DNA of 64,000 bases from Pythium myriotylum (taxonomy: Eukaryota > Oomycota > Peronosporomycetes > Pythiales > Pythiaceae), in contig JALJCQ010000020.1 of the NCBI GenBank assembly GCA_023091665.1, positions 248,001 to 312,000 of the forward strand, written 5' to 3'. The position numbers and the translations under genes were made by a program. Below the pieces are notes generated by a model. That model ran no database searches. It was not told where the DNA came from and saw nothing but the letters and a program-made list of their open reading frames with translations. Shown here in pieces: positions 1 through 64,000 of the stretch (the stretch's first letter is position 1; every line of letters starts with the position of its first letter).

Positions 1-2
1 GG

Positions 3-620: not shown

Positions 621-1214
621 CGGGGGCCTCCCCTTCAGCTCTCCTCCCTTCTCGTGCTTGCCACGTCTACGCCACGCGGTTGGAACCAAACAACCAGCCC
701 ACGCGCCGTCGCAATACTTACTCTCACCCACATCCCAACCAACAAGATGATGGAGACGGAGGACACGACAGCCTCCACATGGAGTGTACACTCGATGCAG
801 AGACAGAGCGTGGAGGTAGCGGGCTACAGCCAGTCCAACCAGCCCAACACACTGGGTTGGCGTCCTGCGTATGGATATCCTCTTCCGCCAGTCCTCGCCC
901 TCTTGATCGTCGTGTTCTCGGTTCTGGCCCGGTGCATCGTCCTTGGTGTGGTCTGGCGGGGGTGGATACCTGCTACCTGGTCTACGTTACTCCTCGAGGA
1001 GTTTCGGGCTTCGCTGGTGGGTGGCCGCCCGTGTGGGCGCGGGAGTGCGGTGGAGGTGTGCGTGTGTGTGTGTGCGTGTGTGTGTAAGAGAGGGTGTGTG
1101 TGGGTGTGAGGGAGAATGTGTGGGTGTGGGTGTGAGAGAGGGTGTGTGTGGTGTGTGCGAAGGTGGCAGAAGGTGCTATAATGTGCAAAAAGGTGGAGCA
1201 AAGTATCAATGGAG

Positions 1215-1225
1215 GGGATCGAACC
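1215..1225 (-). promoter_or_regulatory. Internal B box of the tRNA gene (first copy)
   Basis: GGTTCGATCCC fits the B-box consensus GGTTCGANNCC, the main TFIIIC contact. It lies 11 to 21 bases right of the tRNA start in every copy. Confidence 0.85.
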
Positions 1226-1258
1226 CTCGATCTCAAGCGTGTGAAGCTTGCGTCCTAA

Positions 1259-1269
1259 CCACTAGACGA
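1259..1269 (-). promoter_or_regulatory. Internal A box of the tRNA gene (first copy)
   Basis: TCGTCTAGTGG fits the eukaryotic A-box consensus TRGYNNARNNG except for C at the second base (tRNA position 9). It lies 55 to 65 bases right of the tRNA start in every copy. Confidence 0.75.
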
Positions 1270-1961
1270 CACTGACACTCACACGGATACCCCCGCCCAA
1301 ACACCTCCACAATTAATACTCAACAAAACACACAACACACAAACGCACAACACACAACACACACTCCAACCACAACACAACACAACACACTCACTCCACC
1401 AACGTCCAATACCACCTCCCCCATCTCCCAAACCCCCACCCTACATGCGCGCATGGTGTACGTAACCTTCCAGGCCCTCTCCTTTCCACCGCGTATCTCT
1501 CCAATGTGCTCACCGTCGGTTTGGCTCGTCCTCAGCCGAGGTCCATCACCAACCAGTCATCCCACTACACCCTTCTACAACAAAACAAACGCTGTCTCGT
1601 TTGAAACAACCTCGCACTGCCACCCACGCCACCCACGCCACGCCACCGACGCCACCCACGTCGCTTCTCGGGGGCCTCCCCTTCAGCTCTCCTCCCTTCT
1701 CGTGCTTGCCACGTCTACGCCACGCGGTTGGAACCAAACAACCAGCCCACGCGCCGTCGCAATACTTACTCTCACCCACATCCCAACCAACAAGATGATG
1801 GAGACGGAGGACACGACAGCCTCCACATGGAGTGTACACTCGATGCAGAGACAGAGCGTGGAGGTAGCGGGCTACAGCCAGTCCAACCAGCCCAACACAC
1901 TGGGTTGGCGTCCTGCGTATGGATATCCTCTTCCACCAGTCCTCGCCCTCTTGATCGTCGT

Positions 1962-2003
1962 GTTCTCGGTTCTGGCCCGGTGGTTCTCGGTTCTGGCCCG
2001 GTG
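1962..2003 (+). repeat. 21-bp tandem duplication inside a unit
   Basis: Two adjacent copies (1962-1982 and 1983-2003) of a motif that starts GTTCTCGG and ends CCCGGTG. Most units have one copy. Confidence 0.93.
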
Positions 2004-2250
2004 CATCGTCCTTGGTGTGGTCTGGCGGGGGTGGATACCTGCTACCTGGTCTACGTTACTCCTCGAGGAGTTTCGGGCTTCGCTGGTGGGTGGCCGCCCG
2101 TGTGGGCGCGGGAGTGCGGTGGAGGTGTGCGTGTGTGTGGGTGCGTGTGTGTGTGAGGGAGAATGTGTGGGTGTGGGTGTGAGAGAGGGTGTGTGTGGTG
2201 TGTGCGAAGGTGGCAGAAGGTGCTATAATGTGCAAAAAGGTGGAGCAAAG

Positions 2251-2323
2251 TATCAATGGAGGGGATCGAACCCTCGATCTCAAGCGTGTGAAGCTTGCGT
2301 CCTAACCACTAGACGACACTGAC
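2251..2323 (-). tRNA. tRNA-Val-CAC: tRNA-Val(CAC), copy 2
   Basis: Same gene as at 1204-1276. Unit 1453-2499 (1,047 bp) is the most rearranged: two 9-bp motifs, 21-bp duplication, 22-bp GT-tract loss, 2-bp AC-tract loss, and A at 1935 where most units have G. Confidence 0.92.
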
Positions 2324-3017
2324 ACTCACACGGATACCCCCGCCCAAACACCTCCACAATTAATACTCAACAAAACACACAACACACAAACGCACAACAC
2401 ACAACACACACTCCAACCACAACACAACACAACACACTCACTCCACCAACGTCCAATACCACCTCCCCCATCTCCCAAACCCCCACCCTACATGCGCGCA
2501 TGGTGTACGTAACCTTCCAGGCCCTCTCCTTTCCACCGCGTATCTCTCCAATGTGCTCACCGTCGGTTTGGCTCGTCCTCAGCCGAGGTCCATCACCAAC
2601 CAGTCATCCCACTACACCCTTCTACAACAAAACAAACGCTGTCTCGTTTGAAACAACCTCGCACTGCCACCCACGCCACCCACGCCACCCACGCCACGCC
2701 ACCGACGCCACCCACGTCGCTTCTCGGGGGCCTCCCCTTCAGCTCTCCTCCCTTCTCGTGCTTGCCACGTCTACGCCACGCGGTTGGAACCAAACAACCA
2801 GCCCACGCGCCGTCGCAATACTTACTCTCACCCACATCCCAACCAACAAGATGATGGAGACGGAGGACACGACAGCCTCCACATGGAGTGTACACTCGAT
2901 GCAGAGACAGAGCGTGGAGGTAGCGGGCTACAGCCAGTCCAACCAGCCCAACACACTGGGTTGGCGTCCTGCGTATGGATATCCTCTTCCACCAGTCCTC
3001 GCCCTCTTGATCGTCGT

Positions 3018-3059
3018 GTTCTCGGTTCTGGCCCGGTGGTTCTCGGTTCTGGCCCGGTG
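3018..3059 (+). repeat. 21-bp tandem duplication inside a unit
   Basis: Same duplication as at 1962, unit 2500. Confidence 0.93.
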
Positions 3060-3328
3060 CATCGTCCTTGGTGTGGTCTGGCGGGGGTGGATACCTGCTA
3101 CCTGGTCTACGTTACTCCTCGAGGAGTTTCGGGCTTCGCTGGTGGGTGGCCGCCCGTGTGGGCGCGGGAGTGCGGTGGAGGTGTGCGTGTGTGTGTGTGC
3201 GTGTGTGTGTAAGAGAGGGTGTGTGTGGGTGTGAGGGAGAATGTGTGGGTGTGGGTGTGAGAGAGGGTGTGTGTGGTGTGTGCGAAGGTGGCAGAAGGTG
3301 CTATAATGTGCAAAAAGGTGGAGCAAAG

Positions 3329-3401
3329 TATCAATGGAGGGGATCGAACCCTCGATCTCAAGCGTGTGAAGCTTGCGTCCTAACCACTAGACGACACTGA
3401 C
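3329..3401 (-). tRNA. tRNA-Val-CAC: tRNA-Val(CAC), copy 3
   Basis: Same gene as at 1204-1276. Unit 2500-3579 (1,080 bp) has the 21-bp duplication and the edge-specific A at 2991. Confidence 0.92.
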
Positions 3402-4097
3402 ACTCACACGGATACCCCCGCCCAAACACCTCCACAATTAATACTCAACAAAACACACAACACACACAAACGCACAACACACAACACACACTCCAACCAC
3501 AACACAACACAACACACTCACTCCACCAACGTCCAATACCACCTCCCCCATCTCCCAAACCCCCACCCTACATGCGCGCATGGTGTACGTAACCTTCCAG
3601 GCCCTCTCCTTTCCACCGCGTATCTCTCCAATGTGCTCACCGTCGGTTTGGCTCGTCCTCAGCCGAGGTCCATCACCAACCAGTCATCCCACTACACCCT
3701 TCTACAACAAAACAAACGCTGTCTCGTTTGAAACAACCTCGCACTGCCACCCACGCCACCCACGCCACCCACGCCACGCCACCGACGCCACCCACGTCGC
3801 TTCTCGGGGGCCTCCCCTTCAGCTCTCCTCCCTTCTCGTGCTTGCCACGTCTACGCCACGCGGTTGGAACCAAACAACCAGCCCACGCGCCGTCGCAATA
3901 CTTACTCTCACCCACATCCCAACCAACAAGATGATGGAGACGGAGGACACGACAGCCTCCACATGGAGTGTACACTCGATGCAGAGACAGAGCGTGGAGG
4001 TAGCGGGCTACAGCCAGTCCAACCAGCCCAACACACTGGGTTGGCGTCCTGCGTATGGATATCCTCTTCCACCAGTCCTCGCCCTCTTGATCGTCGT

Positions 4098-4139
4098 GTT
4101 CTCGGTTCTGGCCCGGTGGTTCTCGGTTCTGGCCCGGTG
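4098..4139 (+). repeat. 21-bp tandem duplication inside a unit
   Basis: Same duplication as at 1962, unit 3580. Confidence 0.93.
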
Positions 4140-4394
4140 CATCGTCCTTGGTGTGGTCTGGCGGGGGTGGATACCTGCTACCTGGTCTACGTTACTCCTC
4201 GAGGAGTTTCGGGCTTCGCTGGTGGGTGGCCGCCCGTGTGGGCGCGGGAGTGCGGTGGAGGTGTGCGTGTGTGTGTAAGAGAGGGTGTGTGTGGGTGTGA
4301 GGGAGAATGTGTGGGTGTGGGTGTGAGAGAGGGTGTGTGTGGTGTGTGCGAAGGTGGCAGAAGGTGCTATAATGTGCAAAAAGGTGGAGCAAAG

Positions 4395-4467
4395 TATCAA
4401 TGGAGGGGATCGAACCCTCGATCTCAAGCGTGTGAAGCTTGCGTCCTAACCACTAGACGACACTGAC
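4395..4467 (-). tRNA. tRNA-Val-CAC: tRNA-Val(CAC), copy 4
   Basis: Same gene as at 1204-1276. Unit 3580-4645 (1,066 bp) has the 21-bp duplication, a unique 14-bp GT-tract loss near 4270, and the edge-specific A at 4071. Confidence 0.92.
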
Positions 4468-4636
4468 ACTCACACGGATACCCCCGCCCAAACACCTCCA
4501 CAATTAATACTCAACAAAACACACAACACACACAAACGCACAACACACAACACACACTCCAACCACAACACAACACAACACACTCACTCCACCAACGTCC
4601 AATACCACCTCCCCCATCTCCCAAACCCCCACCCTA

Positions 4637-4648
4637 CATGCGCGCATG
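4637..4648. repeat. 12-bp perfect palindrome CATGCGCGCATG, once per unit
   Basis: The sequence equals its own reverse complement and alternates pyrimidine and purine throughout, so it could form a cruciform or Z-DNA. It recurs at every unit start (from 10 bases before the unit coordinate used here to 2 after it, minus one) and I see no variant. Confidence 0.85.
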
Positions 4649-4812
4649 GTGTACGTAACCTTCCAGGCCCTCTCCTTTCCACCGCGTATCTCTCCAATGT
4701 GCTCACCGTCGGTTTGGCTCGTCCTCAGCCGAGGTCCATCACCAACCAGTCATCCCACTACACCCTTCTACAACAAAACAAACGCTGTCTCGTTTGAAAC
4801 AACCTCGCACTG

Positions 4813-4862
4813 CCACCCACGCCACCCACGCCACCCACGCCACGCCACCGACGCCACCCACG
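4813..4862 (+). repeat. CCACCCACG minisatellite (9-bp period), degenerate on the right
   Basis: Three tandem copies of the 9-bp motif are followed by diverged copies (CCACG, CCACCGACG, CCACCCACG). Seven units have two leading copies instead of three: those starting at 1453, 27088, 32374, 33424, 38664, 48854 and 61536. This accounts for the 1,050-bp class. Confidence 0.9.
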
Positions 4863-5031
4863 TCGCTTCTCGGGGGCCTCCCCTTCAGCTCTCCTCCCTT
4901 CTCGTGCTTGCCACGTCTACGCCACGCGGTTGGAACCAAACAACCAGCCCACGCGCCGTCGCAATACTTACTCTCACCCACATCCCAACCAACAAGATGA
5001 TGGAGACGGAGGACACGACAGCCTCCACATG

Positions 5032-5043
5032 GAGTGTACACTC
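5032..5043. repeat. 12-bp perfect palindrome GAGTGTACACTC, once per unit
   Basis: Self-complementary and present in every unit. It occurs twice in units carrying the 121-bp duplication because it lies inside the duplicated segment. Confidence 0.85.
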
Positions 5044-5238
5044 GATGCAGAGACAGAGCGTGGAGGTAGCGGGCTACAGCCAGTCCAACCAGCCCAACAC
5101 ACTGGGTTGGCGTCCTGCGTATGGATATCCTCTTCCGCCAGTCCTCGCCCTCTTGATCGTCGTGTTCTCGGTTCTGGCCCGGTGCATCGTCCTTGGTGTG
5201 GTCTGGCGGGGGTGGATACCTGCTACCTGGTCTACGTT

Positions 5239-5252
5239 ACTCCTCGAGGAGT
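5239..5252. repeat. 14-bp perfect palindrome ACTCCTCGAGGAGT, once per unit
   Basis: Self-complementary over 14 bp, roughly 200 bp to the left of the tRNA (downstream in its transcription direction). It could be a dimeric protein-binding site or a cruciform seed. No function can be assigned from sequence alone. Confidence 0.85.
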
Positions 5253-5305
5253 TTCGGGCTTCGCTGGTGGGTGGCCGCCCGTGTGGGCGCGGGAGTGCGG
5301 TGGAG

Positions 5306-5409
5306 GTGTGCGTGTGTGTGTGTGCGTGTGTGTGTAAGAGAGGGTGTGTGTGGGTGTGAGGGAGAATGTGTGGGTGTGGGTGTGAGAGAGGGTGTGTGTG
5401 GTGTGTGCG
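5306..5409 (+). repeat. GT-rich tract downstream of the tRNA
   Basis: The first 31 bases (5306-5336) alternate strictly purine-pyrimidine. The rest is GT/GGG-rich with several GGG runs. It is the most length-variable part of the unit: 22-bp loss in units 1453, 36568, 53079 and 62586; 14-bp loss in unit 3580; 26-bp duplication in unit 53079; base changes in units 40794 and 41974. Confidence 0.85.
5365..5377 (+). promoter_or_regulatory. Yeast-Rap1-like / telomere-like motif in the GT tract (reference unit)
   Basis: AATGTGTGGGTGT fits the reverse complement of the budding-yeast Rap1 site as I remember it (RRTGTRTGGGTGT). It recurs in each unit because this part of the tract is conserved. In GT-rich DNA such a match is easy by chance, and the organism may have no Rap1-type factor, so this is a weak call. 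Confidence 0.2.
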
Positions 5410-5436
5410 AAGGTGGCAGAAGGTGCTATAATGTGC

Positions 5437-5441
5437 AAAAA
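5437..5441 (-). terminator. RNA polymerase III T5 terminator (reference unit)
   Basis: Five consecutive T on the minus strand, separated from the tRNA 3' end by 12 nt. A run of four or more T is the usual Pol III stop. The same run sits 17 to 13 bases left of the tRNA start in each unit I inspected, for example 1187-1191 in the first unit. Confidence 0.8.
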
Positions 5442-5453
5442 GGTGGAGCAAAG

Positions 5454-5526
5454 TATCAATGGAGGGGATCGAACCCTCGATCTCAAGCGTGTGAAGCTTG
5501 CGTCCTAACCACTAGACGACACTGAC
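5454..5526 (-). tRNA. tRNA-Val-CAC: tRNA-Val(CAC), copy 5
   Basis: Same gene as at 1204-1276, in the reference unit 4646-5704 (1,059 bp). Anticodon at 5491-5493. Confidence 0.92.
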
Positions 5527-5560
5527 ACTCACACGGATACCCCCGCCCAAACACCTCCAC

Positions 5561-5568
5561 AATTAATA
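5561..5568 (-). promoter_or_regulatory. TATA-like element TATTAATT upstream of the tRNA (reference unit)
   Basis: Read on the minus strand it lies at -42 to -35 relative to tRNA base 1. It is the only AT-rich stretch in the upstream region. Upstream TATA-like elements assist TFIIIB placement on tRNA genes in plants and fission yeast. Its role here is inferred from position. The equivalent in the first unit is 1311-1318. Confidence 0.45.
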
Positions 5569-5570
5569 CT

Positions 5571-5645
5571 CAACAAAACACACAACACACACAAACGCAC
5601 AACACACAACACACACTCCAACCACAACACAACACAACACACTCA
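5571..5645 (+). repeat. AC-rich tract upstream of the tRNA
   Basis: Repeats of CACAA and CACACA with a single ACGCAC in the middle, roughly the inverted complement of the GT tract on the other side of the tRNA. Length variants: 2-bp loss in the spacers after the tRNAs at 1204, 2251, 18367's successor 19426, 52830 and 59169; 24-bp loss after 34223; 17-bp loss after 57068. Confidence 0.8.
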
Positions 5646-6512
5646 CTCCACCAACGTCCAATACCACCTCCCCCATCTCCCAAACCCCCACCCTACATGC
5701 GCGCATGGTGTACGTAACCTTCCAGGCCCTCTCCTTTCCACCGCGTATCTCTCCAATGTGCTCACCGTCGGTTTGGCTCGTCCTCAGCCGAGGTCCATCA
5801 CCAACCAGTCATCCCACTACACCCTTCTACAACAAAACAAACGCTGTCTCGTTTGAAACAACCTCGCACTGCCACCCACGCCACCCACGCCACCCACGCC
5901 ACGCCACCGACGCCACCCACGTCGCTTCTCGGGGGCCTCCCCTTCAGCTCTCCTCCCTTCTCGTGCTTGCCACGTCTACGCCACGCGGTTGGAACCAAAC
6001 AACCAGCCCACGCGCCGTCGCAATACTTACTCTCACCCACATCCCAACCAACAAGATGATGGAGACGGAGGACACGACAGCCTCCACATGGAGTGTACAC
6101 TCGATGCAGAGACAGAGCGTGGAGGTAGCGGGCTACAGCCAGTCCAACCAGCCCAACACACTGGGTTGGCGTCCTGCGTATGGATATCCTCTTCCGCCAG
6201 TCCTCGCCCTCTTGATCGTCGTGTTCTCGGTTCTGGCCCGGTGCATCGTCCTTGGTGTGGTCTGGCGGGGGTGGATACCTGCTACCTGGTCTACGTTACT
6301 CCTCGAGGAGTTTCGGGCTTCGCTGGTGGGTGGCCGCCCGTGTGGGCGCGGGAGTGCGGTGGAGGTGTGCGTGTGTGTGTGTGCGTGTGTGTGTAAGAGA
6401 GGGTGTGTGTGGGTGTGAGGGAGAATGTGTGGGTGTGGGTGTGAGAGAGGGTGTGTGTGGTGTGTGCGAAGGTGGCAGAAGGTGCTATAATGTGCAAAAA
6501 GGTGGAGCAAAG

Positions 6513-6585
6513 TATCAATGGAGGGGATCGAACCCTCGATCTCAAGCGTGTGAAGCTTGCGTCCTAACCACTAGACGACACTGAC
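6513..6585 (-). tRNA. tRNA-Val-CAC: tRNA-Val(CAC), copy 6
   Basis: Same gene as at 1204-1276. Unit 5705-6763, 1,059 bp, reference type. Confidence 0.92.
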
Positions 6586-7571
6586 ACTCACACGGATACC
6601 CCCGCCCAAACACCTCCACAATTAATACTCAACAAAACACACAACACACACAAACGCACAACACACAACACACACTCCAACCACAACACAACACAACACA
6701 CTCACTCCACCAACGTCCAATACCACCTCCCCCATCTCCCAAACCCCCACCCTACATGCGCGCATGGTGTACGTAACCTTCCAGGCCCTCTCCTTTCCAC
6801 CGCGTATCTCTCCAATGTGCTCACCGTCGGTTTGGCTCGTCCTCAGCCGAGGTCCATCACCAACCAGTCATCCCACTACACCCTTCTACAACAAAACAAA
6901 CGCTGTCTCGTTTGAAACAACCTCGCACTGCCACCCACGCCACCCACGCCACCCACGCCACGCCACCGACGCCACCCACGTCGCTTCTCGGGGGCCTCCC
7001 CTTCAGCTCTCCTCCCTTCTCGTGCTTGCCACGTCTACGCCACGCGGTTGGAACCAAACAACCAGCCCACGCGCCGTCGCAATACTTACTCTCACCGACA
7101 TCCCAACCAACAAGATGATGGAGACGGAGGACACGACAGCCTCCACATGGAGTGTACACTCGATGCAGAGACAGAGCGTGGAGGTAGCGGGCTACAGCCA
7201 GTCCAACCAGCCCAACACACTGGGTTGGCGTCCTGCGTATGGATATCCTCTTCCGCCAGTCCTCGCCCTCTTGATCGTCGTGTTCTCGGTTCTGGCCCGG
7301 TGCATCGTCCTTGGTGTGGTCTGGCGGGGGTGGATACCTGCTACCTGGTCTACGTTACTCCTCGAGGAGTTTCGGGCTTCGCTGGTGGGTGGCCGCCCGT
7401 GTGGGCGCGGGAGTGCGGTGGAGGTGTGCGTGTGTGTGTGTGCGTGTGTGTGTAAGAGAGGGTGTGTGTGGGTGTGAGGGAGAATGTGTGGGTGTGGGTG
7501 TGAGAGAGGGTGTGTGTGGTGTGTGCGAAGGTGGCAGAAGGTGCTATAATGTGCAAAAAGGTGGAGCAAAG

Positions 7572-7644
7572 TATCAATGGAGGGGATCGAACCCTCGATC
7601 TCAAGCGTGTGAAGCTTGCGTCCTAACCACTAGACGACACTGAC
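7572..7644 (-). tRNA. tRNA-Val-CAC: tRNA-Val(CAC), copy 7
   Basis: Same gene as at 1204-1276. Unit 6764-7822, 1,059 bp, with the C-to-G variant at 7097. Confidence 0.92.
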
Positions 7645-8176
7645 ACTCACACGGATACCCCCGCCCAAACACCTCCACAATTAATACTCAACAAAACACA
7701 CAACACACACAAACGCACAACACACAACACACACTCCAACCACAACACAACACAACACACTCACTCCACCAACGTCCAATACCACCTCCCCCATCTCCCA
7801 AACCCCCACCCTACATGCGCGCATGGTGTACGTAACCTTCCAGGCCCTCTCCTTTCCACCGCGTATCTCTCCAATGTGCTCACCGTCGGTTTGGCTCGTC
7901 CTCAGCCGAGGTCCATCACCAACCAGTCATCCCACTACACCCTTCTACAACAAAACAAACGCTGTCTCGTTTGAAACAACCTCGCACTGCCACCCACGCC
8001 ACCCACGCCACCCACGCCACGCCACCGACGCCACCCACGTCGCTTCTCGGGGGCCTCCCCTTCAGCTCTCCTCCCTTCTCGTGCTTGCCACGTCTACGCC
8101 ACGCGGTTGGAACCAAACAACCAGCCCACGCGCCGTCGCAATACTTACTCTCACCCACATCCCAACCAACAAGATG

Positions 8177-8418
8177 ATGGAGACGGAGGACACGACAGCC
8201 TCCACATGGAGTGTACACTCGATGCAGAGACAGAGCGTGGAGGTAGCGGGCTACAGCCAGTCCAACCAGCCCAACACACTGGGTTGGCGTCCTGCGTATG
8301 GAGACGGAGGACACGACAGCCTCCACATGGAGTGTACACTCGATGCAGAGACAGAGCGTGGAGGTAGCGGGCTACAGCCAGTCCAACCAGCCCAACACAC
8401 TGGGTTGGCGTCCTGCGT
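8177..8418 (+). repeat. 121-bp tandem duplication inside a unit
   Basis: Copies at 8177-8297 and 8298-8418 are identical by eye. The duplicated segment runs from ATGGAGACGG to just before ATGGATATCC, so both boundaries share ATGGA. This looks like a microhomology-mediated or slippage duplication. It contains the GAGTGTACACTC palindrome. Confidence 0.93.
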
Positions 8419-8751
8419 ATGGATATCCTCTTCCGCCAGTCCTCGCCCTCTTGATCGTCGTGTTCTCGGTTCTGGCCCGGTGCATCGTCCTTGGTGTGGT
8501 CTGGCGGGGGTGGATACCTGCTACCTGGTCTACGTTACTCCTCGAGGAGTTTCGGGCTTCGCTGGTGGGTGGCCGCCCGTGTGGGCGCGGGAGTGCGGTG
8601 GAGGTGTGCGTGTGTGTGTGTGCGTGTGTGTGTAAGAGAGGGTGTGTGTGGGTGTGAGGGAGAATGTGTGGGTGTGGGTGTGAGAGAGGGTGTGTGTGGT
8701 GTGTGCGAAGGTGGCAGAAGGTGCTATAATGTGCAAAAAGGTGGAGCAAAG

Positions 8752-8824
8752 TATCAATGGAGGGGATCGAACCCTCGATCTCAAGCGTGTGAAGCTTGCG
8801 TCCTAACCACTAGACGACACTGAC
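8752..8824 (-). tRNA. tRNA-Val-CAC: tRNA-Val(CAC), copy 8
   Basis: Same gene as at 1204-1276. Unit 7823-9002, 1,180 bp because of the 121-bp internal duplication. Confidence 0.92.
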
Positions 8825-9520
8825 ACTCACACGGATACCCCCGCCCAAACACCTCCACAATTAATACTCAACAAAACACACAACACACACAAACGCACAA
8901 CACACAACACACACTCCAACCACAACACAACACAACACACTCACTCCACCAACGTCCAATACCACCTCCCCCATCTCCCAAACCCCCACCCTACATGCGC
9001 GCATGGTGTACGTAACCTTCCAGGCCCTCTCCTTTCCACCGCGTATCTCTCCAATGTGCTCACCGTCGGTTTGGCTCGTCCTCAGCCGAGGTCCATCACC
9101 AACCAGTCATCCCACTACACCCTTCTACAACAAAACAAACGCTGTCTCGTTTGAAACAACCTCGCACTGCCACCCACGCCACCCACGCCACCCACGCCAC
9201 GCCACCGACGCCACCCACGTCGCTTCTCGGGGGCCTCCCCTTCAGCTCTCCTCCCTTCTCGTGCTTGCCACGTCTACGCCACGCGGTTGGAACCAAACAA
9301 CCAGCCCACGCGCCGTCGCAATACTTACTCTCACCCACATCCCAACCAACAAGATGATGGAGACGGAGGACACGACAGCCTCCACATGGAGTGTACACTC
9401 GATGCAGAGACAGAGCGTGGAGGTAGCGGGCTACAGCCAGTCCAACCAGCCCAACACACTGGGTTGGCGTCCTGCGTATGGATATCCTCTTCCGCCAGTC
9501 CTCGCCCTCTTGATCGTCGT

Positions 9521-9562
9521 GTTCTCGGTTCTGGCCCGGTGGTTCTCGGTTCTGGCCCGGTG
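9521..9562 (+). repeat. 21-bp tandem duplication inside a unit
   Basis: Same duplication as at 1962, unit 9003. Confidence 0.93.
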
Positions 9563-9831
9563 CATCGTCCTTGGTGTGGTCTGGCGGGGGTGGATACCTG
9601 CTACCTGGTCTACGTTACTCCTCGAGGAGTTTCGGGCTTCGCTGGTGGGTGGCCGCCCGTGTGGGCGCGGGAGTGCGGTGGAGGTGTGCGTGTGTGTGTG
9701 TGCGTGTGTGTGTAAGAGAGGGTGTGTGTGGGTGTGAGGGAGAATGTGTGGGTGTGGGTGTGAGAGAGGGTGTGTGTGGTGTGTGCGAAGGTGGCAGAAG
9801 GTGCTATAATGTGCAAAAAGGTGGAGCAAAG

Positions 9832-9904
9832 TATCAATGGAGGGGATCGAACCCTCGATCTCAAGCGTGTGAAGCTTGCGTCCTAACCACTAGACGACAC
9901 TGAC
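9832..9904 (-). tRNA. tRNA-Val-CAC: tRNA-Val(CAC), copy 9
   Basis: Same gene as at 1204-1276. Unit 9003-10082, 1,080 bp, first of four consecutive units with the 21-bp duplication. Confidence 0.92.
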
Positions 9905-10600
9905 ACTCACACGGATACCCCCGCCCAAACACCTCCACAATTAATACTCAACAAAACACACAACACACACAAACGCACAACACACAACACACACTCCAAC
10001 CACAACACAACACAACACACTCACTCCACCAACGTCCAATACCACCTCCCCCATCTCCCAAACCCCCACCCTACATGCGCGCATGGTGTACGTAACCTTC
10101 CAGGCCCTCTCCTTTCCACCGCGTATCTCTCCAATGTGCTCACCGTCGGTTTGGCTCGTCCTCAGCCGAGGTCCATCACCAACCAGTCATCCCACTACAC
10201 CCTTCTACAACAAAACAAACGCTGTCTCGTTTGAAACAACCTCGCACTGCCACCCACGCCACCCACGCCACCCACGCCACGCCACCGACGCCACCCACGT
10301 CGCTTCTCGGGGGCCTCCCCTTCAGCTCTCCTCCCTTCTCGTGCTTGCCACGTCTACGCCACGCGGTTGGAACCAAACAACCAGCCCACGCGCCGTCGCA
10401 ATACTTACTCTCACCCACATCCCAACCAACAAGATGATGGAGACGGAGGACACGACAGCCTCCACATGGAGTGTACACTCGATGCAGAGACAGAGCGTGG
10501 AGGTAGCGGGCTACAGCCAGTCCAACCAGCCCAACACACTGGGTTGGCGTCCTGCGTATGGATATCCTCTTCCGCCAGTCCTCGCCCTCTTGATCGTCGT

Positions 10601-10642
10601 GTTCTCGGTTCTGGCCCGGTGGTTCTCGGTTCTGGCCCGGTG
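10601..10642 (+). repeat. 21-bp tandem duplication inside a unit
   Basis: Same duplication as at 1962, unit 10083. Confidence 0.93.
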
Positions 10643-10911
10643 CATCGTCCTTGGTGTGGTCTGGCGGGGGTGGATACCTGCTACCTGGTCTACGTTACTC
10701 CTCGAGGAGTTTCGGGCTTCGCTGGTGGGTGGCCGCCCGTGTGGGCGCGGGAGTGCGGTGGAGGTGTGCGTGTGTGTGTGTGCGTGTGTGTGTAAGAGAG
10801 GGTGTGTGTGGGTGTGAGGGAGAATGTGTGGGTGTGGGTGTGAGAGAGGGTGTGTGTGGTGTGTGCGAAGGTGGCAGAAGGTGCTATAATGTGCAAAAAG
10901 GTGGAGCAAAG

Positions 10912-10984
10912 TATCAATGGAGGGGATCGAACCCTCGATCTCAAGCGTGTGAAGCTTGCGTCCTAACCACTAGACGACACTGAC
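10912..10984 (-). tRNA. tRNA-Val-CAC: tRNA-Val(CAC), copy 10
   Basis: Same gene as at 1204-1276. Unit 10083-11162, 1,080 bp, 21-bp duplication, plus an A-to-G change at 11042 in the AC tract shared only with unit 19675. Confidence 0.92.
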
Positions 10985-53768: not shown

Positions 53769-53820
53769 GAGGGAGAATGTGTGGGTGTGGGTGTGAGGGA
53801 GAATGTGTGGGTGTGGGTGT
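53769..53820 (+). repeat. 26-bp tandem duplication in the GT tract (unique)
   Basis: Copies at 53769-53794 and 53795-53820 of a GAGGGAGAATG...GGGTGT segment. Found only in unit 53079, on top of the 22-bp loss shared with units 1453, 36568 and 62586. Confidence 0.9.
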
Positions 53821-53890
53821 GAGAGAGGGTGTGTGTGGTGTGTGCGAAGGTGGCAGAAGGTGCTATAATGTGCAAAAAGGTGGAGCAAAG

Positions 53891-53963
53891 TATCAATGGA
53901 GGGGATCGAACCCTCGATCTCAAGCGTGTGAAGCTTGCGTCCTAACCACTAGACGACACTGAC
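53891..53963 (-). tRNA. tRNA-Val-CAC: tRNA-Val(CAC), copy 50
   Basis: Same gene as at 1204-1276. Unit 53079-54141, 1,063 bp: 22-bp GT-tract loss plus a unique 26-bp GT-tract duplication, C-to-G at 53412. First of eight consecutive C-to-G units. Confidence 0.92.
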
Positions 53964-54949
53964 ACTCACACGGATACCCCCGCCCAAACACCTCCACAAT
54001 TAATACTCAACAAAACACACAACACACACAAACGCACAACACACAACACACACTCCAACCACAACACAACACAACACACTCACTCCACCAACGTCCAATA
54101 CCACCTCCCCCATCTCCCAAACCCCCACCCTACATGCGCGCATGGTGTACGTAACCTTCCAGGCCCTCTCCTTTCCACCGCGTATCTCTCCAATGTGCTC
54201 ACCGTCGGTTTGGCTCGTCCTCAGCCGAGGTCCATCACCAACCAGTCATCCCACTACACCCTTCTACAACAAAACAAACGCTGTCTCGTTTGAAACAACC
54301 TCGCACTGCCACCCACGCCACCCACGCCACCCACGCCACGCCACCGACGCCACCCACGTCGCTTCTCGGGGGCCTCCCCTTCAGCTCTCCTCCCTTCTCG
54401 TGCTTGCCACGTCTACGCCACGCGGTTGGAACCAAACAACCAGCCCACGCGCCGTCGCAATACTTACTCTCACCGACATCCCAACCAACAAGATGATGGA
54501 GACGGAGGACACGACAGCCTCCACATGGAGTGTACACTCGATGCAGAGACAGAGCGTGGAGGTAGCGGGCTACAGCCAGTCCAACCAGCCCAACACACTG
54601 GGTTGGCGTCCTGCGTATGGATATCCTCTTCCGCCAGTCCTCGCCCTCTTGATCGTCGTGTTCTCGGTTCTGGCCCGGTGCATCGTCCTTGGTGTGGTCT
54701 GGCGGGGGTGGATACCTGCTACCTGGTCTACGTTACTCCTCGAGGAGTTTCGGGCTTCGCTGGTGGGTGGCCGCCCGTGTGGGCGCGGGAGTGCGGTGGA
54801 GGTGTGCGTGTGTGTGTGTGCGTGTGTGTGTAAGAGAGGGTGTGTGTGGGTGTGAGGGAGAATGTGTGGGTGTGGGTGTGAGAGAGGGTGTGTGTGGTGT
54901 GTGCGAAGGTGGCAGAAGGTGCTATAATGTGCAAAAAGGTGGAGCAAAG

Positions 54950-55022
54950 TATCAATGGAGGGGATCGAACCCTCGATCTCAAGCGTGTGAAGCTTGCGTC
55001 CTAACCACTAGACGACACTGAC
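54950..55022 (-). tRNA. tRNA-Val-CAC: tRNA-Val(CAC), copy 51
   Basis: Same gene as at 1204-1276. Unit 54142-55200, 1,059 bp, C-to-G at 54475. Confidence 0.92.
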
Positions 55023-56008
55023 ACTCACACGGATACCCCCGCCCAAACACCTCCACAATTAATACTCAACAAAACACACAACACACACAAACGCACAACA
55101 CACAACACACACTCCAACCACAACACAACACAACACACTCACTCCACCAACGTCCAATACCACCTCCCCCATCTCCCAAACCCCCACCCTACATGCGCGC
55201 ATGGTGTACGTAACCTTCCAGGCCCTCTCCTTTCCACCGCGTATCTCTCCAATGTGCTCACCGTCGGTTTGGCTCGTCCTCAGCCGAGGTCCATCACCAA
55301 CCAGTCATCCCACTACACCCTTCTACAACAAAACAAACGCTGTCTCGTTTGAAACAACCTCGCACTGCCACCCACGCCACCCACGCCACCCACGCCACGC
55401 CACCGACGCCACCCACGTCGCTTCTCGGGGGCCTCCCCTTCAGCTCTCCTCCCTTCTCGTGCTTGCCACGTCTACGCCACGCGGTTGGAACCAAACAACC
55501 AGCCCACGCGCCGTCGCAATACTTACTCTCACCGACATCCCAACCAACAAGATGATGGAGACGGAGGACACGACAGCCTCCACATGGAGTGTACACTCGA
55601 TGCAGAGACAGAGCGTGGAGGTAGCGGGCTACAGCCAGTCCAACCAGCCCAACACACTGGGTTGGCGTCCTGCGTATGGATATCCTCTTCCGCCAGTCCT
55701 CGCCCTCTTGATCGTCGTGTTCTCGGTTCTGGCCCGGTGCATCGTCCTTGGTGTGGTCTGGCGGGGGTGGATACCTGCTACCTGGTCTACGTTACTCCTC
55801 GAGGAGTTTCGGGCTTCGCTGGTGGGTGGCCGCCCGTGTGGGCGCGGGAGTGCGGTGGAGGTGTGCGTGTGTGTGTGTGCGTGTGTGTGTAAGAGAGGGT
55901 GTGTGTGGGTGTGAGGGAGAATGTGTGGGTGTGGGTGTGAGAGAGGGTGTGTGTGGTGTGTGCGAAGGTGGCAGAAGGTGCTATAATGTGCAAAAAGGTG
56001 GAGCAAAG

Positions 56009-56081
56009 TATCAATGGAGGGGATCGAACCCTCGATCTCAAGCGTGTGAAGCTTGCGTCCTAACCACTAGACGACACTGAC
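56009..56081 (-). tRNA. tRNA-Val-CAC: tRNA-Val(CAC), copy 52
   Basis: Same gene as at 1204-1276. Unit 55201-56259, 1,059 bp, C-to-G at 55534. Confidence 0.92.
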
Positions 56082-57067
56082 ACTCACACGGATACCCCCG
56101 CCCAAACACCTCCACAATTAATACTCAACAAAACACACAACACACACAAACGCACAACACACAACACACACTCCAACCACAACACAACACAACACACTCA
56201 CTCCACCAACGTCCAATACCACCTCCCCCATCTCCCAAACCCCCACCCTACATGCGCGCATGGTGTACGTAACCTTCCAGGCCCTCTCCTTTCCACCGCG
56301 TATCTCTCCAATGTGCTCACCGTCGGTTTGGCTCGTCCTCAGCCGAGGTCCATCACCAACCAGTCATCCCACTACACCCTTCTACAACAAAACAAACGCT
56401 GTCTCGTTTGAAACAACCTCGCACTGCCACCCACGCCACCCACGCCACCCACGCCACGCCACCGACGCCACCCACGTCGCTTCTCGGGGGCCTCCCCTTC
56501 AGCTCTCCTCCCTTCTCGTGCTTGCCACGTCTACGCCACGCGGTTGGAACCAAACAACCAGCCCACGCGCCGTCGCAATACTTACTCTCACCGACATCCC
56601 AACCAACAAGATGATGGAGACGGAGGACACGACAGCCTCCACATGGAGTGTACACTCGATGCAGAGACAGAGCGTGGAGGTAGCGGGCTACAGCCAGTCC
56701 AACCAGCCCAACACACTGGGTTGGCGTCCTGCGTATGGATATCCTCTTCCGCCAGTCCTCGCCCTCTTGATCGTCGTGTTCTCGGTTCTGGCCCGGTGCA
56801 TCGTCCTTGGTGTGGTCTGGCGGGGGTGGATACCTGCTACCTGGTCTACGTTACTCCTCGAGGAGTTTCGGGCTTCGCTGGTGGGTGGCCGCCCGTGTGG
56901 GCGCGGGAGTGCGGTGGAGGTGTGCGTGTGTGTGTGTGCGTGTGTGTGTAAGAGAGGGTGTGTGTGGGTGTGAGGGAGAATGTGTGGGTGTGGGTGTGAG
57001 AGAGGGTGTGTGTGGTGTGTGCGAAGGTGGCAGAAGGTGCTATAATGTGCAAAAAGGTGGAGCAAAG

Positions 57068-57140
57068 TATCAATGGAGGGGATCGAACCCTCGATCTCAA
57101 GCGTGTGAAGCTTGCGTCCTAACCACTAGACGACACTGAC
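57068..57140 (-). tRNA. tRNA-Val-CAC: tRNA-Val(CAC), copy 53
   Basis: Same gene as at 1204-1276. Unit 56260-57301, 1,042 bp: unique 17-bp AC-tract loss near 57200, C-to-G at 56593. Confidence 0.92.
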
Positions 57141-58109
57141 ACTCACACGGATACCCCCGCCCAAACACCTCCACAATTAATACTCAACAAAACACACAAC
57201 ACACAACACACACTCCAACCACAACACAACACAACACACTCACTCCACCAACGTCCAATACCACCTCCCCCATCTCCCAAACCCCCACCCTACATGCGCG
57301 CATGGTGTACGTAACCTTCCAGGCCCTCTCCTTTCCACCGCGTATCTCTCCAATGTGCTCACCGTCGGTTTGGCTCGTCCTCAGCCGAGGTCCATCACCA
57401 ACCAGTCATCCCACTACACCCTTCTACAACAAAACAAACGCTGTCTCGTTTGAAACAACCTCGCACTGCCACCCACGCCACCCACGCCACCCACGCCACG
57501 CCACCGACGCCACCCACGTCGCTTCTCGGGGGCCTCCCCTTCAGCTCTCCTCCCTTCTCGTGCTTGCCACGTCTACGCCACGCGGTTGGAACCAAACAAC
57601 CAGCCCACGCGCCGTCGCAATACTTACTCTCACCGACATCCCAACCAACAAGATGATGGAGACGGAGGACACGACAGCCTCCACATGGAGTGTACACTCG
57701 ATGCAGAGACAGAGCGTGGAGGTAGCGGGCTACAGCCAGTCCAACCAGCCCAACACACTGGGTTGGCGTCCTGCGTATGGATATCCTCTTCCGCCAGTCC
57801 TCGCCCTCTTGATCGTCGTGTTCTCGGTTCTGGCCCGGTGCATCGTCCTTGGTGTGGTCTGGCGGGGGTGGATACCTGCTACCTGGTCTACGTTACTCCT
57901 CGAGGAGTTTCGGGCTTCGCTGGTGGGTGGCCGCCCGTGTGGGCGCGGGAGTGCGGTGGAGGTGTGCGTGTGTGTGTGTGCGTGTGTGTGTAAGAGAGGG
58001 TGTGTGTGGGTGTGAGGGAGAATGTGTGGGTGTGGGTGTGAGAGAGGGTGTGTGTGGTGTGTGCGAAGGTGGCAGAAGGTGCTATAATGTGCAAAAAGGT
58101 GGAGCAAAG

Positions 58110-58182
58110 TATCAATGGAGGGGATCGAACCCTCGATCTCAAGCGTGTGAAGCTTGCGTCCTAACCACTAGACGACACTGAC
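58110..58182 (-). tRNA. tRNA-Val-CAC: tRNA-Val(CAC), copy 54
   Basis: Same gene as at 1204-1276. Unit 57302-58360, 1,059 bp, C-to-G at 57635. Confidence 0.92.
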
Positions 58183-59168
58183 ACTCACACGGATACCCCC
58201 GCCCAAACACCTCCACAATTAATACTCAACAAAACACACAACACACACAAACGCACAACACACAACACACACTCCAACCACAACACAACACAACACACTC
58301 ACTCCACCAACGTCCAATACCACCTCCCCCATCTCCCAAACCCCCACCCTACATGCGCGCATGGTGTACGTAACCTTCCAGGCCCTCTCCTTTCCACCGC
58401 GTATCTCTCCAATGTGCTCACCGTCGGTTTGGCTCGTCCTCAGCCGAGGTCCATCACCAACCAGTCATCCCACTACACCCTTCTACAACAAAACAAACGC
58501 TGTCTCGTTTGAAACAACCTCGCACTGCCACCCACGCCACCCACGCCACCCACGCCACGCCACCGACGCCACCCACGTCGCTTCTCGGGGGCCTCCCCTT
58601 CAGCTCTCCTCCCTTCTCGTGCTTGCCACGTCTACGCCACGCGGTTGGAACCAAACAACCAGCCCACGCGCCGTCGCAATACTTACTCTCACCGACATCC
58701 CAACCAACAAGATGATGGAGACGGAGGACACGACAGCCTCCACATGGAGTGTACACTCGATGCAGAGACAGAGCGTGGAGGTAGCGGGCTACAGCCAGTC
58801 CAACCAGCCCAACACACTGGGTTGGCGTCCTGCGTATGGATATCCTCTTCCGCCAGTCCTCGCCCTCTTGATCGTCGTGTTCTCGGTTCTGGCCCGGTGC
58901 ATCGTCCTTGGTGTGGTCTGGCGGGGGTGGATACCTGCTACCTGGTCTACGTTACTCCTCGAGGAGTTTCGGGCTTCGCTGGTGGGTGGCCGCCCGTGTG
59001 GGCGCGGGAGTGCGGTGGAGGTGTGCGTGTGTGTGTGTGCGTGTGTGTGTAAGAGAGGGTGTGTGTGGGTGTGAGGGAGAATGTGTGGGTGTGGGTGTGA
59101 GAGAGGGTGTGTGTGGTGTGTGCGAAGGTGGCAGAAGGTGCTATAATGTGCAAAAAGGTGGAGCAAAG

Positions 59169-59241
59169 TATCAATGGAGGGGATCGAACCCTCGATCTCA
59201 AGCGTGTGAAGCTTGCGTCCTAACCACTAGACGACACTGAC
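59169..59241 (-). tRNA. tRNA-Val-CAC: tRNA-Val(CAC), copy 55
   Basis: Same gene as at 1204-1276. Unit 58361-59417, 1,057 bp: 2-bp AC-tract loss, C-to-G at 58694. Confidence 0.92.
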
Positions 59242-60225
59242 ACTCACACGGATACCCCCGCCCAAACACCTCCACAATTAATACTCAACAAAACACACAA
59301 CACACAAACGCACAACACACAACACACACTCCAACCACAACACAACACAACACACTCACTCCACCAACGTCCAATACCACCTCCCCCATCTCCCAAACCC
59401 CCACCCTACATGCGCGCATGGTGTACGTAACCTTCCAGGCCCTCTCCTTTCCACCGCGTATCTCTCCAATGTGCTCACCGTCGGTTTGGCTCGTCCTCAG
59501 CCGAGGTCCATCACCAACCAGTCATCCCACTACACCCTTCTACAACAAAACAAACGCTGTCTCGTTTGAAACAACCTCGCACTGCCACCCACGCCACCCA
59601 CGCCACCCACGCCACGCCACCGACGCCACCCACGTCGCTTCTCGGGGGCCTCCCCTTCAGCTCTCCTCCCTTCTCGTGCTTGCCACGTCTACGCCACGCG
59701 GTTGGAACCAAACAACCAGCCCACGCGCCGTCGCAATACTTACTCTCACCGACATCCCAACCAACAAGATGATGGAGACGGAGGACACGACAGCCTCCAC
59801 ATGGAGTGTACACTCGATGCAGAGACAGAGCGTGGAGGTAGCGGGCTACAGCCAGTCCAACCAGCCCAACACACTGGGTTGGCGTCCTGCGTATGGATAT
59901 CCTCTTCCGCCAGTCCTCGCCCTCTTGATCGTCGTGTTCTCGGTTCTGGCCCGGTGCATCGTCCTTGGTGTGGTCTGGCGGGGGTGGATACCTGCTACCT
60001 GGTCTACGTTACTCCTCGAGGAGTTTCGGGCTTCGCTGGTGGGTGGCCGCCCGTGTGGGCGCGGGAGTGCGGTGGAGGTGTGCGTGTGTGTGTGTGCGTG
60101 TGTGTGTAAGAGAGGGTGTGTGTGGGTGTGAGGGAGAATGTGTGGGTGTGGGTGTGAGAGAGGGTGTGTGTGGTGTGTGCGAAGGTGGCAGAAGGTGCTA
60201 TAATGTGCAAAAAGGTGGAGCAAAG

Positions 60226-60298
60226 TATCAATGGAGGGGATCGAACCCTCGATCTCAAGCGTGTGAAGCTTGCGTCCTAACCACTAGACGACACTGAC
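60226..60298 (-). tRNA. tRNA-Val-CAC: tRNA-Val(CAC), copy 56
   Basis: Same gene as at 1204-1276. Unit 59418-60476, 1,059 bp, C-to-G at 59751. Confidence 0.92.
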
Positions 60299-61284
60299 AC
60301 TCACACGGATACCCCCGCCCAAACACCTCCACAATTAATACTCAACAAAACACACAACACACACAAACGCACAACACACAACACACACTCCAACCACAAC
60401 ACAACACAACACACTCACTCCACCAACGTCCAATACCACCTCCCCCATCTCCCAAACCCCCACCCTACATGCGCGCATGGTGTACGTAACCTTCCAGGCC
60501 CTCTCCTTTCCACCGCGTATCTCTCCAATGTGCTCACCGTCGGTTTGGCTCGTCCTCAGCCGAGGTCCATCACCAACCAGTCATCCCACTACACCCTTCT
60601 ACAACAAAACAAACGCTGTCTCGTTTGAAACAACCTCGCACTGCCACCCACGCCACCCACGCCACCCACGCCACGCCACCGACGCCACCCACGTCGCTTC
60701 TCGGGGGCCTCCCCTTCAGCTCTCCTCCCTTCTCGTGCTTGCCACGTCTACGCCACGCGGTTGGAACCAAACAACCAGCCCACGCGCCGTCGCAATACTT
60801 ACTCTCACCGACATCCCAACCAACAAGATGATGGAGACGGAGGACACGACAGCCTCCACATGGAGTGTACACTCGATGCAGAGACAGAGCGTGGAGGTAG
60901 CGGGCTACAGCCAGTCCAACCAGCCCAACACACTGGGTTGGCGTCCTGCGTATGGATATCCTCTTCCGCCAGTCCTCGCCCTCTTGATCGTCGTGTTCTC
61001 GGTTCTGGCCCGGTGCATCGTCCTTGGTGTGGTCTGGCGGGGGTGGATACCTGCTACCTGGTCTACGTTACTCCTCGAGGAGTTTCGGGCTTCGCTGGTG
61101 GGTGGCCGCCCGTGTGGGCGCGGGAGTGCGGTGGAGGTGTGCGTGTGTGTGTGTGCGTGTGTGTGTAAGAGAGGGTGTGTGTGGGTGTGAGGGAGAATGT
61201 GTGGGTGTGGGTGTGAGAGAGGGTGTGTGTGGTGTGTGCGAAGGTGGCAGAAGGTGCTATAATGTGCAAAAAGGTGGAGCAAAG

Positions 61285-61357
61285 TATCAATGGAGGGGAT
61301 CGAACCCTCGATCTCAAGCGTGTGAAGCTTGCGTCCTAACCACTAGACGACACTGAC
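61285..61357 (-). tRNA. tRNA-Val-CAC: tRNA-Val(CAC), copy 57
   Basis: Same gene as at 1204-1276. Unit 60477-61535, 1,059 bp, C-to-G at 60810, last of the eight-unit run. Confidence 0.92.
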
Positions 61358-62334
61358 ACTCACACGGATACCCCCGCCCAAACACCTCCACAATTAATAC
61401 TCAACAAAACACACAACACACACAAACGCACAACACACAACACACACTCCAACCACAACACAACACAACACACTCACTCCACCAACGTCCAATACCACCT
61501 CCCCCATCTCCCAAACCCCCACCCTACATGCGCGCATGGTGTACGTAACCTTCCAGGCCCTCTCCTTTCCACCGCGTATCTCTCCAATGTGCTCACCGTC
61601 GGTTTGGCTCGTCCTCAGCCGAGGTCCATCACCAACCAGTCATCCCACTACACCCTTCTACAACAAAACAAACGCTGTCTCGTTTGAAACAACCTCGCAC
61701 TGCCACCCACGCCACCCACGCCACGCCACCGACGCCACCCACGTCGCTTCTCGGGGGCCTCCCCTTCAGCTCTCCTCCCTTCTCGTGCTTGCCACGTCTA
61801 CGCCACGCGGTTGGAACCAAACAACCAGCCCACGCGCCGTCGCAATACTTACTCTCACCCACATCCCAACCAACAAGATGATGGAGACGGAGGACACGAC
61901 AGCCTCCACATGGAGTGTACACTCGATGCAGAGACAGAGCGTGGAGGTAGCGGGCTACAGCCAGTCCAACCAGCCCAACACACTGGGTTGGCGTCCTGCG
62001 TATGGATATCCTCTTCCGCCAGTCCTCGCCCTCTTGATCGTCGTGTTCTCGGTTCTGGCCCGGTGCATCGTCCTTGGTGTGGTCTGGCGGGGGTGGATAC
62101 CTGCTACCTGGTCTACGTTACTCCTCGAGGAGTTTCGGGCTTCGCTGGTGGGTGGCCGCCCGTGTGGGCGCGGGAGTGCGGTGGAGGTGTGCGTGTGTGT
62201 GTGTGCGTGTGTGTGTAAGAGAGGGTGTGTGTGGGTGTGAGGGAGAATGTGTGGGTGTGGGTGTGAGAGAGGGTGTGTGTGGTGTGTGCGAAGGTGGCAG
62301 AAGGTGCTATAATGTGCAAAAAGGTGGAGCAAAG

Positions 62335-62407
62335 TATCAATGGAGGGGATCGAACCCTCGATCTCAAGCGTGTGAAGCTTGCGTCCTAACCACTAGACGA
62401 CACTGAC
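62335..62407 (-). tRNA. tRNA-Val-CAC: tRNA-Val(CAC), copy 58
   Basis: Same gene as at 1204-1276. Unit 61536-62585, 1,050 bp: one 9-bp motif fewer. Confidence 0.92.
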
Positions 62408-63371
62408 ACTCACACGGATACCCCCGCCCAAACACCTCCACAATTAATACTCAACAAAACACACAACACACACAAACGCACAACACACAACACACACTCC
62501 AACCACAACACAACACAACACACTCACTCCACCAACGTCCAATACCACCTCCCCCATCTCCCAAACCCCCACCCTACATGCGCGCATGGTGTACGTAACC
62601 TTCCAGGCCCTCTCCTTTCCACCGCGTATCTCTCCAATGTGCTCACCGTCGGTTTGGCTCGTCCTCAGCCGAGGTCCATCACCAACCAGTCATCCCACTA
62701 CACCCTTCTACAACAAAACAAACGCTGTCTCGTTTGAAACAACCTCGCACTGCCACCCACGCCACCCACGCCACCCACGCCACGCCACCGACGCCACCCA
62801 CGTCGCTTCTCGGGGGCCTCCCCTTCAGCTCTCCTCCCTTCTCGTGCTTGCCACGTCTACGCCACGCGGTTGGAACCAAACAACCAGCCCACGCGCCGTC
62901 GCAATACTTACTCTCACCCACATCCCAACCAACAAGATGATGGAGACGGAGGACACGACAGCCTCCACATGGAGTGTACACTCGATGCAGAGACAGAGCG
63001 TGGAGGTAGCGGGCTACAGCCAGTCCAACCAGCCCAACACACTGGGTTGGCGTCCTGCGTATGGATATCCTCTTCCGCCAGTCCTCGCCCTCTTGATCGT
63101 CGTGTTCTCGGTTCTGGCCCGGTGCATCGTCCTTGGTGTGGTCTGGCGGGGGTGGATACCTGCTACCTGGTCTACGTTACTCCTCGAGGAGTTTCGGGCT
63201 TCGCTGGTGGGTGGCCGCCCGTGTGGGCGCGGGAGTGCGGTGGAGGTGTGCGTGTGTGTGGGTGCGTGTGTGTGTGAGGGAGAATGTGTGGGTGTGGGTG
63301 TGAGAGAGGGTGTGTGTGGTGTGTGCGAAGGTGGCAGAAGGTGCTATAATGTGCAAAAAGGTGGAGCAAAG

Positions 63372-63444
63372 TATCAATGGAGGGGATCGAACCCTCGATC
63401 TCAAGCGTGTGAAGCTTGCGTCCTAACCACTAGACGACACTGAC
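63372..63444 (-). tRNA. tRNA-Val-CAC: tRNA-Val(CAC), copy 59
   Basis: Same gene as at 1204-1276. Unit 62586-63622, 1,037 bp: 22-bp GT-tract loss without the C-to-G change, unlike units 36568 and 53079. Confidence 0.92.
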
Positions 63445-63622
63445 ACTCACACGGATACCCCCGCCCAAACACCTCCACAATTAATACTCAACAAAACACA
63501 CAACACACACAAACGCACAACACACAACACACACTCCAACCACAACACAACACAACACACTCACTCCACCAACGTCCAATACCACCTCCCCCATCTCCCA
63601 AACCCCCACCCTACATGCGCGC

Positions 63623-64000
63623 ATGGTGTACGTAACCTTCCAGGCCCTCTCCTTTCCACCGCGTATCTCTCCAATGTGCTCACCGTCGGTTTGGCTCGTC
63701 CTCAGCCGAGGTCCATCACCAACCAGTCATCCCACTACACCCTTCTACAACAAAACAAACGCTGTCTCGTTTGAAACAACCTCGCACTGCCACCCACGCC
63801 ACCCACGCCACCCACGCCACGCCACCGACGCCACCCACGTCGCTTCTCGGGGGCCTCCCCTTCAGCTCTCCTCCCTTCTCGTGCTTGCCACGTCTACGCC
63901 ACGCGGTTGGAACCAAACAACCAGCCCACGCGCCGTCGCAATACTTACTCTCACCCACATCCCAACCAACAAGATGATGGAGACGGAGGACACGACAGCC
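63623..64000. repeat. Right-hand unit cut off by the window end (first 378 bp)
   Basis: Begins at the usual palindrome and carries three copies of the 9-bp motif. It ends before the GT tract and tRNA. The array therefore continues beyond this window. Confidence 0.95.

Follow-up and report, generated by a model that had tools for sequence, protein, structure and literature searches.

A 154-kb tandem array of tRNA-Val(CAC) genes and other tRNA gene arrays in the genome of an apparently Pythium-like oomycete

Background

Why would a chromosome carry one and the same transfer RNA (tRNA) gene many times in succession? The question is raised by a stretch of 64,000 nucleotides (the window in what follows; positions 248,001-312,000 of the 471,702-bp contig C20, in a genome of 58.7 Mb and 55 contigs). 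An earlier note, made from the sequence, had described this window as an array of 59 same-strand tRNA-Val(CAC) genes, one per ~1-kb unit, starting at position 621 and extending over more than 63 kb. The most probable answer, to which we assign a probability of roughly 0.87, is that the locus represents an ordinary tRNA gene array of an oomycete, comparable to those described for Phytophthora and Peronospora, that has been amplified and homogenised by exchange and that supplies tRNA-Val(CAC).

Structure and extent of the array

The description given in the earlier note was confirmed in its main points. ARAGORN identified 59 tRNA-Val(CAC) genes in the window, every one on the minus strand and all with the same 74-bp sequence (59/59). 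The 59 complete units of the window carry one gene each, vary in length from 1,035 to 1,201 bp (30 of them measure 1,059 bp) and comprise 23 distinct sequences. The array sequence begins at about position 622, some way into a unit, in agreement with the start given in the earlier note. Its extent proved larger than claimed: the full array runs from ~248,622 to ~402,660 of contig C20, some 154 kb, and contains 143 tRNA-Val(CAC) genes, which are all identical (143/143), with none on the opposite strand, in units of 47 distinct sequences. Size and copy number are taken here from the assembly sequence. Both edges fall inside a unit, and on either side the array is bordered, within the same contig, by sequence that lacks array units. 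The features of the array itself are, in window positions:

622..64000, minus strand: window part of the tRNA-Val(CAC) array, 59 genes; continues to ~402,660 of contig C20, 143 genes in total
1204..1276, minus strand: first tRNA-Val(CAC) gene, with the end points given by Rfam; 58 further copies follow in the window
63371-63444, minus strand: last tRNA-Val(CAC) gene of the window (ARAGORN end points, one base longer than those of Rfam)
1187..1191, minus strand: run of five T (T5) on the tRNA strand, 12 nt past the tRNA 3' end; putative RNA polymerase III (Pol III) terminator

The genes look intact by sequence, since all nine copies present in window positions 1-10,000 reach 62.4 bits with the Rfam tRNA model, whose gathering score is 29, and since the predicted fold is a cloverleaf; chance is no explanation for this. 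The picture drawn in the earlier note of a single-isoacceptor array in a GC-rich eukaryote stands. So does its statement that the array holds no other gene, as far as tested by Rfam (10 kb) and by homologue and Pfam searches with the spacer frame discussed below. Outside the array ARAGORN found no further tRNA gene in positions 228,001-471,702 of contig C20. The 40 nt downstream of the tRNA gene, which include the T5 run, are identical in 143 of the 143 copies, and in the one unit examined the tRNA strand has no second run of at least five T. A run of this kind shortly past the gene is expected of a Pol III terminator, and the T5 run is likely to act as one.

Uniformity and maintenance of the array

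The units are nearly identical over their whole length: in pairwise comparisons their substitution divergence averages 0.12% (gaps left uncounted). Base differences occur in 16 columns over the ~1.06 kb of the unit, from which ~1.1 would be expected to fall within the 74-bp gene. Two features of the spacer are of importance for the variation between units:

1056..1157, no strand: GT-rich low-complexity spacer stretch, one site of between-unit variation (distinct units aligned)
8177..8423, no strand: 121-bp tandem duplication in the spacer, found in units of 1,162-1,201 bp (16/143 units, clustered)

Both the 121-bp duplication and a 21-bp duplication, which is present in 42 of the 143 units, are clustered along the array. 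Moreover, 33 pairs of adjacent units are identical, compared to a mean of 11.5 and a maximum of 20 in 500 shuffles. The clustered variants and the identical neighbours fit local unequal crossing-over or gene conversion. A duplication of blocks of several units was considered and rejected, as the longest displaced run covers 4 units and the shuffles reach 5 (maximum in 500).

We propose that head-to-tail amplification of a ~1.06-kb unit, consisting of one tRNA-Val(CAC) gene with its downstream T5 run and spacer, gave rise to the 143 copies now present at a single chromosomal site, that the near-identity of the copies would be kept by unequal crossing-over or gene conversion among neighbouring units, and that the tRNA-Val(CAC) of the genome would be supplied by the array.

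The array as the only source of tRNA-Val(CAC)

A 31-nt gene probe (up to 3 mismatches) yielded 178 matches genome-wide, on one strand only. These divide by count into 143 in the C20 stretch and 35 Val-AAC matches on contigs C17 and C43; the Val-AAC genes that were read there have 3 mismatches to the probe. Val-CAC genes thus number 143 inside the array and, by count and with this probe, none elsewhere in the genome: the array is the only source of tRNA-Val(CAC) found. The spacer behaves in the same way. Two spacer probes (up to 3 mismatches) gave 143 and 160 matches genome-wide, totals that the C20 stretch reaches on its own, so that by count no spacer copy was found outside the array with either of them, and the dispersed copies typical of a short interspersed nuclear element (SINE) were not seen.

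A tRNA-Glu converted to tRNA-Val(CAC), a possibility raised by shared words in the D-arm, was rejected. The gene differs from Val-AAC of the same genome at 5 of 73 positions and from Glu-UUC, the tRNA-Glu used for the comparison, at 45 of 73; this ungapped count is an overestimate, as the D-loop of Glu-UUC differs in length.

Other tRNA arrays in the genome

The earlier note had suggested looking for arrays of other tRNAs, and 8 further arrayed sets were found, each identified from a few of its genes with ARAGORN. Beyond those genes the counts below are pattern or model matches; model scoring covered 63 of the 3,081 tRNA candidates of the genome, so that the Lys-UUU and Thr counts are lower bounds.

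Contig C1, 559-629 kb: Leu-AAG array, 41 B-box matches
Contig C1, 2,794-2,858 kb: Arg-ACG array, 30 B-box matches
Contig C12: Lys-UUU array, at least 22 matches
Contig C11: Thr-CGU/Ser-GCU/Trp-CCA trimer array, at least 29 Thr matches
Contigs C17 (1,897-1,904 kb) and C43: Val-AAC/Ser-AGA dimer array, 35 Val matches
Contig C1, 1,738-1,779 kb: Val-UAC array, 9 matches, mostly ~4.04 kb apart
Contigs C16 and C33: Glu-CUC arrays, 32 and 22 matches, respectively
Contig C33: Glu-UUC array, 33 matches

Arrays hold 87 of the 92 matches to a Glu pattern and 44 of the 48 to a Val-AAC/UAC pattern (2 of the 48 are mitochondrial), whereas the reversed-pattern controls gave 7 and 10 matches. Two generic B-box patterns produced 652 and 378 matches genome-wide, against 79 and 258 for their reversed controls. 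In a comparison of three Val-CAC units with 11 stretches of other arrays (blastn, low-complexity filter on) only the Val genes matched, with 3 bp more on each side in the case of Val-AAC.

The Glu-CUC arrays lie at the start of contig C16 and at the end of contig C33, and tRNA arrays therefore probably break the assembly there. On the 65.6-kb contig C43 the Val matches start at 7.6 kb and continue almost to the contig end, interrupted by a single gap of 9 kb, and in one of its Val-AAC copies a base is missing close to the anticodon stem. No other array observed has a regular spacing as long as the ~4.04 kb of Val-UAC, one copy of which has the opposite orientation. One more array, with at least 23 matches, was observed in contig C11 at 492-519 kb.

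Ribosomal 5S RNA genes may follow another arrangement. At least 35 matches were found on several contigs (47 of 3,815 candidates scored), with neighbours mostly ~10.46 kb apart. None of these matches lies at a tRNA array that was seen, and none was found in the 10 kb of the Val-CAC array that was scanned. The spacing suggests that 5S is linked to the ribosomal DNA unit and not to the tRNA arrays.

Lineage and comparison with known systems

The array had been interpreted in the earlier note as an independent or diverged instance of the tRNA arrays of Entamoeba. This interpretation does not hold. The mitochondrial protein Rpl6 shows 81% identity to that of Globisporangium ultimum and 76% to that of Pythium insidiosum, with other identities of up to 88% among the 120 of 538 matches listed. 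An rpl6 gene of the oomycete type argues against an amoebozoan such as Entamoeba, and by this one protein the genome looks like that of a Pythium-like oomycete. Among the 120 of 186 matches listed for a nuclear methyltransferase, none carries an oomycete name. The contig that encodes Rpl6 (C2, 161 kb) is mitochondrial judging from this gene and from its high AT content (GC 23.5% over the 10 kb read). From the spacing of its tRNA matches, C2 seems to be built of a repeated ~72.1-kb unit, with some copies inverted.

Large tRNA arrays have been published for two oomycetes. In P. infestans (PMC9584435, which gives the figures 7,519 plus 3,537 for this species) there are monomeric single-isoacceptor arrays besides a Val-AAC/Ser-AGA dimer and a Thr-CGU/Trp-CCA/Ser-GCU trimer. 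The present genome resembles it in having monomeric arrays of near-identical units on one chromosome, a Leu-AAG monomer and the same dimer and trimer. The units differ in length (513 nt for Cys, in 271 copies, and 850 nt for Val/Ser in P. infestans, compared to 1.06 kb and ~1.7 kb here), and in the parts of PMC9584435 consulted a Val-CAC array is not named among the arrays. In P. effusa (PMC11540230) each isolate has more than 6,000 tRNA genes, ~99.6% of which are located in clusters of 10-970 nearly identical genes; the Arg cluster, among the biggest, has 570 copies over 412 kb. Disrupted spacer open frames are found there as well, and the clusters expand and contract. However, those clusters contain inversions and diverged subgroups, whereas no gene among the 143 described here is on the opposite strand, and their authors classed them as SINE-like, whereas the evidence here favours tRNA genes.

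The Val-CAC array is thus a further example of a known phenomenon, and no earlier report of a Val-CAC array was found in the literature searched. The word "tRNA" is absent from the main text of a telomere-to-telomere oomycete paper (PMC11139960) and of a Pythium myriotylum paper (PMC9430622); in PMC4272539, a paper about fragments of P. infestans tRNAs, the term "tRNA clusters" denotes sequences grouped by similarity and does not refer to arrays. What the present data add is a Pythium-like genome to those with the Phytophthora dimer and trimer units, and this common possession suggests that such units may predate the divergence of the two lineages.

Outside the oomycetes, the tRNA genes of Entamoeba likewise form long tandem arrays in which the spacers are repetitive (PMC2652664), but those of E. 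histolytica fall into 25 distinct units holding at most 5 tRNA genes, some also with 5S RNA, whereas here most of the arrays read have one tRNA per unit; Entamoeba is a parallel case only. Tandemly repeated tRNA genes are also known from Arabidopsis, for Ser/Tyr (PMC12308677) and for Cys (PMC10701932), the latter a single-isoacceptor cluster, but plant tRNA genes are mostly dispersed and the Arabidopsis Cys cluster consists of four genes.

Codon demand and alternative explanations

It had been claimed that the amplification exceeds the need for GUG decoding, and this is not clearly the case. In a rough count over 17 long putative open reading frames (ORFs) near the array, 270 of 580 valine codons were GTG, followed by GTC (230), GTT (48) and GTA (32); GTG is thus the commonest valine codon, and by count no Val-CAC gene was found outside the array to read it. 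The matches per isoacceptor (143 for Val-CAC, 35 for Val-AAC and 9 for Val-UAC) put Val-CAC first, but dosage is only a loose fit, because Val-AAC meets a comparable demand with one fourth as many genes. For P. infestans, too, the authors reported only a modest correlation (R = 0.41; PMC9584435).

Several points weigh against an ordinary tRNA gene array that serves dosage. The Val-CAC genes are about four times as numerous as those for Val-AAC while the demand looked equal (270 GTG versus 278 GTC plus GTT), so that dosage alone is insufficient. Transcription by Pol III is predicted from the sequence, the copy number depends on the assembly, and the lineage depends on one mitochondrial protein and on its contig belonging to the same organism. 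Furthermore, the absence of variants from the gene does not demonstrate selection, as the spacer varies hardly more.

The disproportion between copy number and rough codon use is an argument for a structural role, in which a block of Pol III genes would be maintained for nuclear organisation or as a chromatin boundary. The same question was raised by the authors of PMC9584435, and P. infestans has array sets in common with this genome. Nevertheless, drift of the copy number by unequal exchange requires no such role, and we consider it unlikely. A wider form of the idea, slightly less probable still, would have the oomycete tRNA arrays as an old, conserved chromosomal system, with the same sets in a Pythium-like species and Phytophthora and unrelated spacers between arrays, whose length would be kept far above translational need because Pol III blocks organise chromosomes.

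The assembler may also have inflated a short array. Related arrays are found at contig ends (Glu-CUC) or, on C43, take up the greater part of the contig, which indicates that such arrays are hard to assemble. The Val-CAC array, however, has non-array sequence on both sides within one contig and 47 distinct unit sequences with clustered variants, which makes an artefact very improbable.

Marginally less probable again is that the units are SINE-like, i.e. transposable elements of tRNA origin that carry the annotation of tRNA genes, a view put forward in PMC11540230 for the P. effusa clusters, where a frameshift-disrupted open frame lies between the tRNAs; a comparable disrupted frame is present in the Val-CAC spacer. 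The same authors state, however, that each element is confined to one region and is probably unable to mobilise. In the present genome the tRNA fold looks intact, on the plus strand of the one unit examined A runs reach 5 at most and T runs stay below 4, and sister arrays carry two or three different tRNAs per unit in sets that match P. infestans. The single-location spacer, the absence by count of another Val-CAC source and the shared multi-tRNA units together lead us to prefer tRNA genes over SINEs. This bears on the published disagreement between the P. infestans paper (tRNA genes) and the P. effusa paper (SINE-like repeats), as a cluster whose spacer was not found elsewhere and which is the sole source found for its isoacceptor is hard to label a SINE.

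The spacer open frame

The frame mentioned above is located as follows:

747..1109, plus strand: spacer open frame of 120 amino acids, oriented convergently to the tRNA gene; judged not to be a gene

It spans 120 amino acids in 74 of 144 copies and 115-391 in the others, and the 121-bp duplication shifts it in 16 of the 144. Frames of at least 120 amino acids arise in 137 of 300 dinucleotide shuffles of a unit. No homologue was found at an expectation value (E) of 0.1 or below (12 candidates), nor a Pfam family at E ≤ 0.01, and the frame is therefore unsupported as a gene. The longest ATG frame of the tandem unit on either strand has 237 amino acids, a length reached by 7 of 300 shuffles; this is mildly unusual and no evidence of coding. 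That the array is a protein-coding repeat with the tRNA as a passenger is hardly credible on these grounds, despite the rarity of a 237-amino acid frame and the one hydrophobic segment of the 120-amino acid frame (residues 51-69, mean 2.77 on the Kyte-Doolittle scale).

Flanking sequences

The sequence to the left of the array forms the first part of the window:

1..621, no strand: left flank outside the array, with a 110-amino acid ORF (286-615, minus strand)

This ORF has no Pfam match at E ≤ 0.01. To the right of the array edge there is a long open frame that by its motifs looks like that of a retroelement; a 273-amino acid piece of this flank gave no Pfam match at the same threshold. On both sides of the array there are ORFs of ~500-630 amino acids that appear alike by eye (L009, L010 and L021), sharing words such as RWFR..PSG..GDY and MYSWP/YAWP; the three of them that were scanned belong to no Pfam family at E ≤ 0.01. 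Finally, a tandem duplication of ~1.3 kb was observed inside a gene that by eye has a kinase-like look (L009:808-4192).

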